A DNA stretch of 25,563 bases, taken from positions 1-25,563 of IMG/VR virus record IMGVR_UViG_3300040808_001057. One strand, given 5' to 3'. The stretch comes from a virus. Shown one piece after another: positions 6,544 to 11,147 of the stretch (its first letter is position 1; each line of letters starts with the position of its first letter). Both the position numbers and the translations under genes were made by a program. A model generated the notes under the pieces. The model saw only the letters and a program-made list of their open reading frames with translations. It made no database searches and was not told the origin of the DNA.

Positions 6544-6769
6544 TTAATAGTTCCTCTACCTGCTTTTTCATCTCCAAGCAAGCCATGTATGACCCTTTTG
6601 CAAAGTCTGCGGTGGATTCATTGCGGTCATTGACAGGGCACTTATTATACAAATCAATCCAATAGGCTGCATGTTCCGAGATGCATTTCTTTACCTCGTT
6701 CAACGTCAAAGAGCAATACGACTCTTTCTTCGTCGCTTCTGTTGTATGCTGAGTGTTCTTGTGTGTCAT
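6530..6769 (-). CDS. 79-aa hypothetical helical protein overlapping the hydroxylase gene
   Basis: The C-terminal two thirds (AAYWIDLYNKCP, then SYMACLEMKKQVEELLNE) looks like a normal helical protein and its stop overlaps the next ATG. The N-terminal part is less convincing, since from ATG 6769 it overlaps the end of the hydroxylase gene by 116 bp. No other in-frame ATG lies before residue 60, so either this long overlap is real or a TTG (for instance around LTLNEVKK) is used. Function unknown. Confidence 0.5.
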   Translation of the reverse strand: MTHKNTQHTTEATKKESYCSLTLNEVKKCISEHAAYWIDLYNKCPVNDRNESTADFAKGSYMACLEMKKQVEELLNEIE

Positions 6770-7145
6770 CGAATAATAGTAGTTGTCCTGGCTCCCAGGA
6801 GATAAGTTTCTTGTTTACTATCATACCACAGTCGTCAGGTATTTTTATACCTAAATGATATCTGTATACTTGATCAGTAAACCCTGTGTGCGGAGCAATC
6901 TCTGTCCCAGGCTTTAGAATAGAGAATGATGCATTGACGAGTCCTGGGATATCCTTAAGTAACTCCCAAGTCTTCGGGCATAACTTAATACCGTCTTCAA
7001 AGACTTGATCAAAAAAAAGAAACGGGAAGACATCCCAATCCCCCGTGTAGAGATCTCTTTCAAAGTAAGGCGTGGCACCATGAATTTTGAGATACTCTTC
7101 AAGGATGTCTTCCCAGTGTTCCTTTAGTTTTTCTACCCAGGTCAT
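6654..7145 (-). CDS. Aspartyl/asparaginyl beta-hydroxylase-like 2-oxoglutarate dioxygenase
   Basis: The 163-aa protein has the features of the AspH family: ILKPGTEIAPHTG with iron ligand His86, YRYHLGI with Arg95, a WEPGQLLLFDDTQEHSAYN block with His131, and RVVLLFDV with the 2-oxoglutarate-binding Arg141. It should hydroxylate a side chain, probably of a protein, using iron and 2-oxoglutarate, but the target is unknown. The TATAAT box 5 nt before ATG 7145 lies one base from the CCA end of tRNA-Arg. It is the first message gene after the RNA operon. Confidence 0.85.
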   Translation of the reverse strand: MTWVEKLKEHWEDILEEYLKIHGATPYFERDLYTGDWDVFPFLFFDQVFEDGIKLCPKTWELLKDIPGLVNASFSILKPGTEIAPHTGFTDQVYRYHLGIKIPDDCGMIVNKKLISWEPGQLLLFDDTQEHSAYNRSDEERVVLLFDVERGKEMHLGTCSLLD

Positions 7146-7423: not shown

Positions 7424-7498
7424 TGGAGCCAGATGTCAGACTTGAACTGACGACCGCTGCTTTACAAAAGCAGTGCTCTACCACTGAGCTAATCTGGC
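7424..7498 (-). tRNA. tRNA-Thr(UGU)
   Basis: A 75-nt cloverleaf with encoded CCA. Acceptor GCCAGAT/ATCTGGC, anticodon loop TTTGTAA (UGU), T-loop TTCAAGT. The discriminator is U, which is fine for threonine. Confidence 0.95.
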
Positions 7499-7503
7499 GT
7501 GTA

Positions 7504-7615
7504 TGGTGGAGGTGGCGCGAATCGAACGCGCGTCCAGGAAGAACGTAGAACTTTAACCTGTGGGCTATAATCGTCCCGCTTTCGCTGTCCAACCTGTCGA
7601 TACCGTTTCACCCCC
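7504..7615 (-). ncRNA. ssrA: Miniature tmRNA-like RNA (112 nt)
   Basis: Both ends are those of a tmRNA. The 5' end reads GGGGGTGAAACGGTATCGAC, with the tmRNA D-loop analogue. The 3' end has GGAC, a T-arm (stem GCGCG/CGCGC, loop TTCGATT) and CACCTCCACCA. The acceptor stem pairs over 7 bp and includes G3-U70, the alanine identity pair of tmRNA, with discriminator A. In place of an anticodon arm, CAGG-TT-GGAC (nt 20-29) pairs with GTTC-TT-CCTG (72-81) as a P2-like helix. Only 42 nt remain inside, against roughly 250-300 in usual tmRNA. One frame there reads GCG AAA GCG GGA CGA TTA TAG, a possible short tag AKAGRL; this is uncertain. It is flanked by tRNAs with the same TACA-type spacers. Confidence 0.75.
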
Positions 7616-7621
7616 GATGTA

Positions 7622-7698
7622 TGGTAGGGATGGCGGGATTCGAACCCGCACTTGACAGATTTTAAGTCTGTTGCCTCTGCCGATTGGGCTACATCCCC
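7622..7698 (-). tRNA. tRNA-Leu(UAA), short variable loop
   Basis: A 77-nt cloverleaf with encoded CCA. Acceptor GGGGATG pairs with CATCCCT (G1-U72 wobble), U8-A9 are present, the anticodon stem ACAGA/TCTGT is perfect and loop CTTAAAA gives UAA for UUA codons. The variable loop is only CAAGT, whereas bacterial leucine tRNAs normally have a long variable arm, so the amino acid charged is less certain than the anticodon. It directly abuts tRNA-Asn with no spacer. Confidence 0.85.
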
Positions 7699-8245: not shown

Positions 8246-8256
8246 GTGGTCTGGTA

Positions 8257-8306
8257 TCGAGGAGGTGTGTTCTGACAGCGGTGGTTACCCACTCGCTCCT
8301 CCTCGA
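8257..8306 (-). ncRNA. Structured 50-nt leader of the tRNA operon
   Basis: In minus-strand RNA, TCGAGGAGG pairs with CCTCCTCGA (8298-8306 with 8257-8265, 9 bp). Inside, AGCG-A-GTGG pairs with CCAC-CGCT around a GTAA (GNRA) tetraloop, with one bulged A. An 11-nt single-stranded bulge (GTCAGAACACA) lies on the 3' side only. The TATAAT box at 8313-8318 places transcription start at or just before this helix, so it would be the 5' end of the operon transcript. It may protect the 5' end, guide tRNA processing, or be an independent small RNA. Confidence 0.6.
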
Positions 8307-8312
8307 CATTAC

Positions 8313-8336: not shown

Positions 8337-9692
8337 TCATACGGAAGAGACGTTATATTTTTCGGTGTCGATGATTTTCACCTCACCTCGCACGATCCTG
8401 GGCTTGTAGAACTCATCACCATTTTTGGGGACAAGCTCGTTCAGGATGGCATCTGCAACCTTATCGGAGACGTTGTTCTTGATGAACCTAGCAATGTTTC
8501 TGGCTCCATACTCGCGGGAGTACCCCTTGTCCGCAACAAACTCTACAAGAGCATGAGTGGTCATGATGGGTAGCTTCTCCAAGTGTAGAGCAGCAATATC
8601 CTTCACATCCTTTTTAGAAAGTGGTTTGAACACTACAGTATCATCAATACGGTTCAGGAACTCTGGGCTGAAGTGTCTCTTAACAGACTTCTTGATAACA
8701 CTCTCGCTAACAGAATCGGAAACTTCTTCTTTACTAGACATGAAGCCAACAGACTCCCGCTTGATCTCTCCAACACCCTGGTTAGATGTAAAGATAAAGA
8801 TCGACTGGGAAAAGTCTAGAACCTGTCCCATGTTATCAGTACAGGTGCCGTCATCAAGAAGACTCAGCAAGAAATCGTACAGCTTATGGTGAGCCTTCTC
8901 GATCTCATCGAACAAGAACACCCAACTGTTACTCTTCTCTGCCTTCTCAGCCAGCAGAGACTTCTCTGTGTGACCTACATAGCCTGGAGGAGATCCGATA
9001 AGCTTGGCGTACTCATGCCCACCAGCATACTCAGCGCAGTTGATCTTGTAGAAGTTACCACTGAACTTCTCTCCCAGCAGCTTTGCAAGTTGCGTCTTAC
9101 CCACGCCTGTAGGGCCGACAAAGAGAAACGAGGACTGTCCAGAGAGTCCAGAGGCCATAAGCTTCAGAGAGCGCATCAGAGCCTTGATAGCAGCCTCCTG
9201 GCCCACAATGTTCTCTAGCAGATAATCTTCCAACCTCTTCAATTCCTCGATTGACGACAAAGCCACGGGAAGCTGTACGCTCTCTTCAGTCTCCCTCTGA
9301 GTTACCCCCAGAAGCTGCTCCTTCAATCTAGCTATAGCATTATTATTACTAGGGTCCTTGAAGAAGGTCTCAGAATTTAGGTCTTCACAGATGAAGTTAA
9401 GAGAGAAGGGTGGATACATTCGGATGATAGCTTCATATGCGGCATCCACACCCTCCTGCATCAACTCAATGTCATCATCGGGAAAAAGTTCAAAGAAAGC
9501 ATCAACGTCTATGAGAAACTTTCTGACAATGAACGTCTTGTACTCATCGAACTTAATCGGCTGTGCCTCTGTTCTAATCTTTTCTCGAAGCTGATTGTAC
9601 AACTCCATCTCCTCTTCCACAACAAGACCTTTGAGGTTAAGGATTACATCAAGCTCAGGGCATACAACCCTATATGTTTTGCGCTCACTCAT
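8337..9692 (-). CDS. Single-ring ClpA/ClpX-like AAA+ unfoldase with ClpP-docking loop
   Basis: The 451-aa protein has a C-terminal AAA+ module of the ClpA/B D2 type: Walker A GPTGVGKT (193-200), pore loop GYVG (237-240), Walker B FLFDEIE (259-265), sensor 1 TSN (302-304), arginine finger in FLNRID (R348) and sensor 2 GAR (396-398). VGF at 315-317 sits where ClpA has IGL and ClpX has IGF, the loop that docks onto ClpP; ClpB lacks it. The first 150 residues are a helical domain I do not recognise, perhaps for substrate choice. No ClpP gene is in the window, so host ClpP would be the partner. The ATG overlaps the upstream gene by 8 nt. Confidence 0.85.
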   Translation of the reverse strand: MSERKTYRVVCPELDVILNLKGLVVEEEMELYNQLREKIRTEAQPIKFDEYKTFIVRKFLIDVDAFFELFPDDDIELMQEGVDAAYEAIIRMYPPFSLNFICEDLNSETFFKDPSNNNAIARLKEQLLGVTQRETEESVQLPVALSSIEELKRLEDYLLENIVGQEAAIKALMRSLKLMASGLSGQSSFLFVGPTGVGKTQLAKLLGEKFSGNFYKINCAEYAGGHEYAKLIGSPPGYVGHTEKSLLAEKAEKSNSWVFLFDEIEKAHHKLYDFLLSLLDDGTCTDNMGQVLDFSQSIFIFTSNQGVGEIKRESVGFMSSKEEVSDSVSESVIKKSVKRHFSPEFLNRIDDTVVFKPLSKKDVKDIAALHLEKLPIMTTHALVEFVADKGYSREYGARNIARFIKNNVSDKVADAILNELVPKNGDEFYKPRIVRGEVKIIDTEKYNVSSV

Positions 9693-10156: not shown

Positions 10157-10391
10157 TAGGATCACCTAGGATTTCAACAAATGCCAGATGTGCATCCTTC
10201 ATCTCAACCCCTGGAGGTAGATCGAATGATGTTTTGGTATCTCTAATTGCTTGAACAATGTCTACCTTTTCTGGGTATTCCATCTCTAGCTCTAGATGAA
10301 CCTTAAGTGTTCTGTTAATTAGATCCCTGCGCCTATTCTTGGCAGTGAAATCCAACTTAGTCTTTTCTTGCTTGCTAAACCAATTCTTCAT
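10143..10391 (-). CDS. 82-aa hypothetical protein
   Basis: A basic N-terminal half (MKNWFSKQEKTKLDFTAKNR, RRDLINRTLKVHLELEMEYP) is followed by a helix and PPGVEMKDAHLAFVEILGDP. The ATG overlaps the oxygenase stop by ATGA. No family recognised. Confidence 0.65.
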   Translation of the reverse strand: MKNWFSKQEKTKLDFTAKNRRRDLINRTLKVHLELEMEYPEKVDIVQAIRDTKTSFDLPPGVEMKDAHLAFVEILGDPNAKK

Positions 10392-10990
10392 TTTATTGTT
10401 CCCGTATAGTGAATGACAAGAGCATATCTTGTGCCCTTTGTTATTTTATTCACTTGATGTTGTGTAAACCCGTCCCACACTAGGGCTGACCCAACTTCTT
10501 TCTCACCCCCTATCATAGTCTCTTCTCCCATAGAATTAAAAATGACAGTCTCTCCTCCTTCAAAATTATCATTAAGAAGGATCGCAGCAGTTGCTACGAT
10601 AGGTGGGCGGATGCCGTTAGGTCCTGAGTCCCAATCGCAGTGCGACTCGAAGAAGCCTCCTTCTTCATACTTCAAAATCCAGAACCCGTGGTGTCCTGTG
10701 ACCACATCGCATACCGTGTTAGACAAGCTCCAGTTGATATGCCTCAGGAAGCTCTCTCCGATAGAAAACAGGTCAGGAAGAACAGAGATGATCTTCTCAT
10801 CATTGTTCGTCCTGACCTTAGAAAATGGGTTGGCGATCTGATACTCAAGACACCAAGGATTGTAAGACCATTCAGATCGCTTCCCCCGTTCGTCAACCAA
10901 CTCCATGAGTGTTTTAGCACACTCTTCACTGATTACATTTTTTGCTGTCAGATAGGCGGGAGCAGGGTTATTTACTTTTACGTCTTGCAT
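10388..10990 (-). CDS. Prolyl-4-hydroxylase-like 2OG-Fe(II) oxygenase
   Basis: In the 200-aa form starting MQDVKVNN, the iron ligands are H117-x-D119 (in ESHCDWDSG) and His178 (GFTQHQVNKI), and Arg188 (KGTRYALVIHY) should bind 2-oxoglutarate. The ILLNDNFEGGETVIF strand is typical of the P4Hc domain. It should hydroxylate a protein or nucleic-acid substrate; the target is unknown. The frame also has ATG 11026 (12 residues longer, MSTKKRKSLRNS), which would overlap the 59-aa ORF by 59 instead of 23 bp. Neither start has a strong ribosome site. It is the second 2OG hydroxylase of the window. Confidence 0.8.
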   Translation of the reverse strand: MQDVKVNNPAPAYLTAKNVISEECAKTLMELVDERGKRSEWSYNPWCLEYQIANPFSKVRTNNDEKIISVLPDLFSIGESFLRHINWSLSNTVCDVVTGHHGFWILKYEEGGFFESHCDWDSGPNGIRPPIVATAAILLNDNFEGGETVIFNSMGEETMIGGEKEVGSALVWDGFTQHQVNKITKGTRYALVIHYTGTIK

Positions 10991-11147
10991 TGAATTTCTC
11001 AAACTCTTCCTCTTCTTCGTACTCATCGTGCTCGAAAGAGTTCATCACATTATAGGATTGATTGAGTTGAGTCTTCTTTGGTTTACGCTGTTTCTTTTTA
11101 CTAGAGGTGTTGTAGTCCTCTCTGTCTTTTCTATATGTGTGTCCCAT
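10968..11147 (-). CDS. 59-aa charge-segregated micro-protein
   Basis: The frame encodes a basic N-terminal half (MGHTYRKDREDYNTSSKKKQ, then RKPKKTQ) and a strongly acidic block (EHDEYEEEEEFE) with a short basic end (NARRKSK). It begins by TAATG overlap with the upstream gene and overlaps the start of the oxygenase in another frame, so translation is probably coupled on both sides. Likely disordered. No family recognised. Confidence 0.6.
   Translation of the reverse strand: MGHTYRKDREDYNTSSKKKQRKPKKTQLNQSYNVMNSFEHDEYEEEEEFEKFNARRKSK

Follow-up and report, generated by a model that had tools for sequence, protein, structure and literature searches.

On comparative sequence evidence, the 109–112-nt form of tmRNA described here is a conserved, phage-specific family of tag-less tmRNAs, represented in the stretch of viral DNA analysed (the window; 25,563 nt, IMG/VR record IMGVR_UViG_3300040808_001057) by a 112-nt RNA gene at 7504–7615 on the minus strand. 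tmRNA is a bacterial RNA that frees stuck ribosomes, and part of it tags proteins for destruction. The window RNA is a real tmRNA-type molecule: it matches the Rfam tmRNA model RF00023 with 63.9 bits (cmscan, E 5e-23; gathering score 47 bits), with model positions 1–374 of 374 aligned and the central ~300 positions missing. It is a tmRNA tRNA-like domain (TLD) without a tag in a phage genome, i.e., of the TLD-only, DS6A type. We infer that its most likely role, with a probability of roughly 60%, would be that of a competitor of host tmRNA for both SmpB and stalled ribosomes.

The first-pass annotation had proposed a 112-nt miniature tmRNA with short spacers inside a phage tRNA cluster, leaving the strand implicit; the RNA proves to be real, its gene lies on the minus strand, and the Infernal comparison that the annotation suggested aligns both ends to RF00023 at a score above the gathering score. 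Phage genes surround the mini-tmRNA gene, which is flanked upstream by tRNA-Leu(UAA) (7622–7698, minus strand) and downstream by tRNA-Thr(UGU) (7424–7498, minus strand), with spacers of 6 nt on the Leu side and 5 nt on the Thr side according to the tRNA ends given by ARAGORN; the cluster order is Ile-Asn-Leu-[mini]-Thr-Pro-Arg. The mini-tmRNA was not called by ARAGORN in the same run that found the six flanking tRNAs. The folding energy of the single window sequence is unremarkable (z -1.3), and the case beyond chance therefore rests on the Rfam score, the ten distinct covarying homologues and the covariation itself. The UvsX protein of the window phage is <35% identical to those of cultured phages.

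Several other features lie close to the cluster. A Clp-type AAA+ unfoldase gene (8337–9692, minus strand; AAA_2 and ClpB_D2-small; phrog_4871 ‘ATP-dependent protease’) adjoins the tRNAs and mini-tmRNA and is conserved in many phage contigs; the window protein has a VGF motif at the place of the ClpP loop in ClpC. Two nearby genes (6654–7145 and 10388–11026, both minus strand) encode an aspartyl/asparaginyl beta-hydroxylase-like protein and a 2OG-Fe(II) oxygenase. Between the Clp-like gene and tRNA-Ile, and directly after a TATAAT box, lies a strongly structured, apparently unknown RNA (8250–8308, minus strand; z -4.5) that forms a hairpin with a large one-sided bulge carrying an invariant CAGAAC. 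Its fold also occurs in five relatives (L024, L025, L032, L034, and L035), with 11 of 19 pairs compensated, and a search against Rfam gave no match even at E 1.

The structure of the 112-nt RNA can be followed part by part on the minus strand. The acceptor stem is formed by GGGGGUG (RNA nt 1–7; 7609–7615) and CACCUCC (nt 102–108; 7508–7514) with all seven positions paired; two pairs are changed on both sides among the homologues, and G3·U70 is invariant. With the encoded discriminator A and CCA (7504–7507; 3′ end ACCA), invariant in ten of ten homologues, this is the alanine-type acceptor of tmRNA. The D-loop-like segment AAACGGUAUCGA (7597–7608), the presumed SmpB site, agrees with the RF00023 consensus, and its GGU.U.GAC is invariant across the 109–112-nt family. 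As in tmRNA, a P2 helix replaces the anticodon arm: CAGG-UU-GGAC (nt 20–29; 7587–7596) and GUUC-UU-CCUG (nt 72–81; 7535–7544) form eight pairs, 4+4 around a UU/YU internal loop, with 100% of cells in the alignment paired, four pairs changed on both sides, and base variants CAGG/CCTG, CAAG/CTTG, CGGG/CCCG, and CTCG/CGAG. The linker from P2 to the T-arm is a conserved GGAC, the GAC of which (nt 82–84; 7532–7534) is invariant in ten of ten and contains, by our alignment with the E. coli ends, the equivalent of E. coli A334. The T-arm (nt 85–101; 7515–7531) has five pairs, three of them changed on both sides, again with 100% of cells paired.

The 42 nt enclosed by P2 comprise a GC-GNRA-GC side hairpin (nt 31–38; 7578–7585), with an invariant stem and a tetraloop that reads either GAAA or GCAA in each of the ten sequences, and, in place of the mRNA-like domain, a covarying P3 stem-loop (nt 40–68; 7548–7576). 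The basal GGAC/GUYC helix of P3 shows a compensatory change to AGAC/GUCU, and its four basal pairs are fully paired and covarying; the apical pairs are uncertain, with 51–60 and 52–59 unsupported by the ten-sequence comparison. None of PK1–PK4 or H5 was found in the window RNA, in which only these 42 nt stand where the central RF00023 positions are unmatched. As judged from the alignment, the mRNA-like domain and pseudoknots are replaced by a compact, conserved three-way structure. The features first noted from the letters alone (tmRNA-type 5′ end, T-arm, and 3′ end, the G3-U70 alanine pair, the encoded CCA, the P2-like helix, and the 42 nt inside it) were all borne out.

A pattern of tmRNA ends with a short spacer recovered 16 stretches in IMG/VR, seven of them exactly 112 nt, and an inner-loop pattern together with a covariance model (R1) added forms of 109–111 nt. 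The 109–112-nt forms score >108 bits against R1, versus ≤32 bits for ordinary tRNAs, although the sequences used to build R1 match it by construction. Across the ten distinct sequences 95.6% of cells are paired, and 11 pairs are changed on both sides (37 such cells; because the sequences share kinship, the events are fewer than the cells). None of 500 shuffles reaches the observed values of pairing and covariation, and slid controls pair 38–56%. Two of the homologues (L156 and L158) come from GC-rich phage contigs that have no tRNA genes; there the mini gene sits between genes that, from a reading of their proteins, are SSB-like and RecA-like.

These data bear on two readings that would make the window RNA something other than a functional tag-less molecule, and we consider both very improbable. 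That the gene is a decaying relic of a full-length phage tmRNA would fit its scattered distribution among near relatives of the window phage, some of which have it and others not, with the tRNA cluster retained either way; yet compensatory changes in the acceptor, P2, P3, and T-arm, a near-constant length, invariant loops, and the occurrence in unrelated phages lacking a tRNA cluster contradict decay, as the first-pass annotation had anticipated when it set aside a scrambled relic and called for a search of related phages for co-changing acceptor and P2 pairs. The same annotation had offered two alternatives, a very short tag or a tag-less decoy. In the former, translation would resume at GCG and add AKAGRL from the frame GCG AAA GCG GGA CGA TTA TAG (7565–7585, minus strand); this frame runs without a stop through six codons in the window and ten in L009, L010, and L018, and some bacteria do have genuine tags of only 2 aa (PMC11915505). 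However, homologues with the same fold translate as AKAERLKPKG* (L009), AQAGRLKPTV* (L010), and AKARRLTPK* (L159), compared with AKAGRL* in the window, so that the stop falls at codon 7, 10, or 11, or is absent (L155, L157, L156, and L158). Changes in the frame show no bias to codon position 3, frames 1 and 2 of the inner region are no better, and UAA recurs in several members because it pairs with UUA. The supposed codons fall within base-paired segments or hairpins, neither PK1 nor H5 is present, and among the homologues there is no conserved frame with a stop that would constitute an mRNA-like domain. The tag AKAGRL is accordingly rejected, and the tag-less decoy is the alternative that fits, with DS6A as precedent.

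The DS6A ‘TLD only’ tmRNA (tmRNA Website tmID 11587; Mao et al. 2009; Hudson et al. 2014, PMC4131195) is like the window RNA a phage-encoded, tag-less tRNA-like domain, and the likeness in tmRNA-type acceptor and T-arm is expected. By description, on which the comparison with DS6A was made, that RNA is little more than a TLD, whereas the window RNA has within P2 a further, conserved domain of 42 nt and is one of a covarying family. Full-length one-piece tmRNA (RF00023) shares the ends, D-loop-like segment, P2, T-arm, G3·U70, and CCA, but is about 230–400 nt long and has the PK1–PK4, H5, and tag frame that the 112-nt window RNA lacks. The tmRNAs of jakobid and oomycete mitochondria (RF02544) and the ~65-bp tmRNAs of Mallomonadaceae plastids likewise keep the tRNA-like domain and have lost the tag (PMC11915505); these are organellar, and the mitochondrial ones usually permuted, whereas the window RNA is one-piece and viral with a distinct inner domain. 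Permuted two-piece tmRNA (RF04321) has tmRNA ends in common with the window RNA and differs in gene order and tag; a permuted reading of the window gene is rejected, since RF04321 gave only partial matches (28.4 and 14.4 bits) and the 5′ piece comes first. Tag-less tmRNA was thus already known from one phage (DS6A) and from organelles (PMC11915505); what is new is the 109–112-nt form with its conserved inner domain, its covariation, and its spread over unrelated phages, cultured examples included. We found no description of this form, its family, or the cultured examples in the open-access literature.

Permuted two-piece tmRNA genes occur in Stenotrophomonas Menderavirus Marzo (L019) and Alcaligenes phage QDWS595 (L023), both at first taken for mini-like forms but full-length, and in crAss-like cr50_1 (L140); in all three the annotation is absent or extends into neighboring tRNAs.

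At least nine further phage contigs have forms of 65–83 nt with the same ends, as does the cultured Streptomyces phage Shaeky, in which an unannotated 82-nt form (59.3 bits) lies inside the tRNA cluster. Two (L104 and L005) have a bare P2 hairpin, and others have short loops (L001/L002, L006/L008, L007, L014, L016, L017, and L119). G3·U70 is present in every short form, although the search pattern did not require it (in L014 and L016 when read with the 5′ base included, as in the cmscan alignment). In an unbiased word count, TAAAGCC (≤1 mismatch) occurs in 9 of 11 representative inner segments, some of which may have common ancestry, whereas none of 300 shuffles exceeds 6. A diverged, unannotated 79-nt relative lies in the tRNA clusters of about 92 Streptomyces phage records, most of them from the BE group (Samistivirus and Karimacvirus); it is at L137:593–671, at L143:3735–3813, and in ~90 other records. 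In this form G3·U70 and the loop GAAAGCCGACAATGG are invariant, and P2 has 100% of cells paired with five pairs changed on both sides; because it scores only ~30 bits against RF00023, close to tRNAs, we call it a candidate only. UCGAC and GGACG have been lost from the BE forms, which may not bind SmpB. A full-length tmRNA is also present in both of the phages with the 79-nt candidate that were examined, Teutsch and Sushi23. By their shared ends, mini forms are distributed over many unrelated phages, including cultured ones.

Streptomyces phage Alone3 (L154, about 279–357) has an unannotated tmRNA-like mini RNA scoring 36.8 bits against RF00023, below the cut-off, with a loop AAAGCCGCATGCGG in common with Shaeky. 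In a phage that also has an 81-nt mini-tmRNA (L001:1859–1932 and L002:1365–1438 for the tRNA), a tRNA that ARAGORN names Pyl has the anticodon CUA and might suppress amber codons. Matches in Milly, ctl617, MD-2021a, SanaSana, and a Bordetella phage were rejected as integration-site ends, tRNAs, or unrelated, and a longer-spacing pattern for intermediate forms gave only two weak matches, of which one lacks a proper 3′ end and the other lies in coding-like sequence.

A scan of 84,980 genomes of bacteria and archaea with the mini-tmRNA pattern gave nothing, and a search of cellular genomes for a donor of the ends, made with the exact 5′ 23-mer, gave no hit. No SmpB gene was found in the 24 phage records bearing a mini form, most of which are fragments.

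As a competitor, the mini-tmRNA would mature in the manner of the neighboring tRNAs, receive alanine from the host AlaRS, and associate with the host’s SmpB; the resulting Ala-RNA·SmpB·EF-Tu would vie with host tmRNA for both SmpB and stalled ribosomes while offering no resume codon, and host trans-translation and tagging would thereby be damped during infection. By our alignment with the ends of the E. coli tmRNA, the nucleotides equivalent to its U17 and A334 do not vary in the 112-nt class. In E. coli, SmpB Trp122 stacks on these two nucleotides (PMC8363625). According to PMC4131195, which cites Mao 2009, tmRNA is strongly inhibited by a TLD-only molecule of the DS6A kind, perhaps via SmpB titration, and the inhibition does not depend on charging of that molecule; according to PMC3968760, which cites Neubauer 2012, alanyl-TLD·SmpB·EF-Tu alone docks on a stalled ribosome in a crystal. 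Given inhibition without charging, pure titration fails to explain why G3·U70 is kept everywhere. Its retention points to a role for charging and so allows for a model of ribosome entry instead of SmpB titration alone. A plain decoy would also have no need of the conserved inner 42-nt domain, which the 65–67-nt forms lack.

The same observations could be read as productive rescue without a tag, in which the charged mini-tmRNA with SmpB would enter the stalled ribosome and take the nascent chain, another factor would release it, and the protein would stay unmarked. An analogous proposal exists for mitochondrial tmRNAs without a tag, tag-less mitochondrial and some plastid tmRNAs persist (PMC11915505), and the 112-nt class retains G3·U70, the discriminator A, and CCA, with G3·U70 present in every lineage, as would be expected were charging important. 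This is nonetheless unlikely, since the RNA lacks a resume codon, PK1, and a stop codon, and hence any known way of ribosome release, and no rescue factor was identified in the phage. We also think it improbable that the fold does another job, whether as bait for a host nuclease or toxin attacking tRNA or tmRNA or as a structural RNA unrelated to rescue: mini genes are often in tRNA clusters, phage tRNA sets are tied to anti-tRNA defences (PMC10264068), and the UAAAGCC loop motif, conserved across mini forms, is not explained by SmpB titration, but it is exactly the AlaRS- and SmpB-recognition parts that are retained, pointing to tmRNA partners. Competition for SmpB and stalled ribosomes thus remains our preferred reading.

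More tentatively, and well short of an even chance, the mini forms may constitute a widespread, unrecognized phage class of charged, tag-less tmRNAs with conserved inner domains of their own (the GNRA/P3 domain in the 109–112-nt form and the UAAAGCC loop in the ~80-nt form), which, as Ala-RNA·SmpB, would gain entry to stalled ribosomes and turn rescue to the phage’s advantage, beyond soaking up SmpB, in some phages beside a separate full-length phage tmRNA. In the accessible literature, tag-less phage tmRNA has so far been a single curiosity (DS6A). As natural minimal tmRNAs, the mini forms could be used to ask which elements are enough for AlaRS, SmpB, and ribosome entry; in the cultured Streptomyces phages the gene could be deleted. 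That the mini forms recur across many phages not related to one another, with compensatory changes and with alanine identity retained throughout, argues that manipulation of trans-translation is a recurrent phage strategy.
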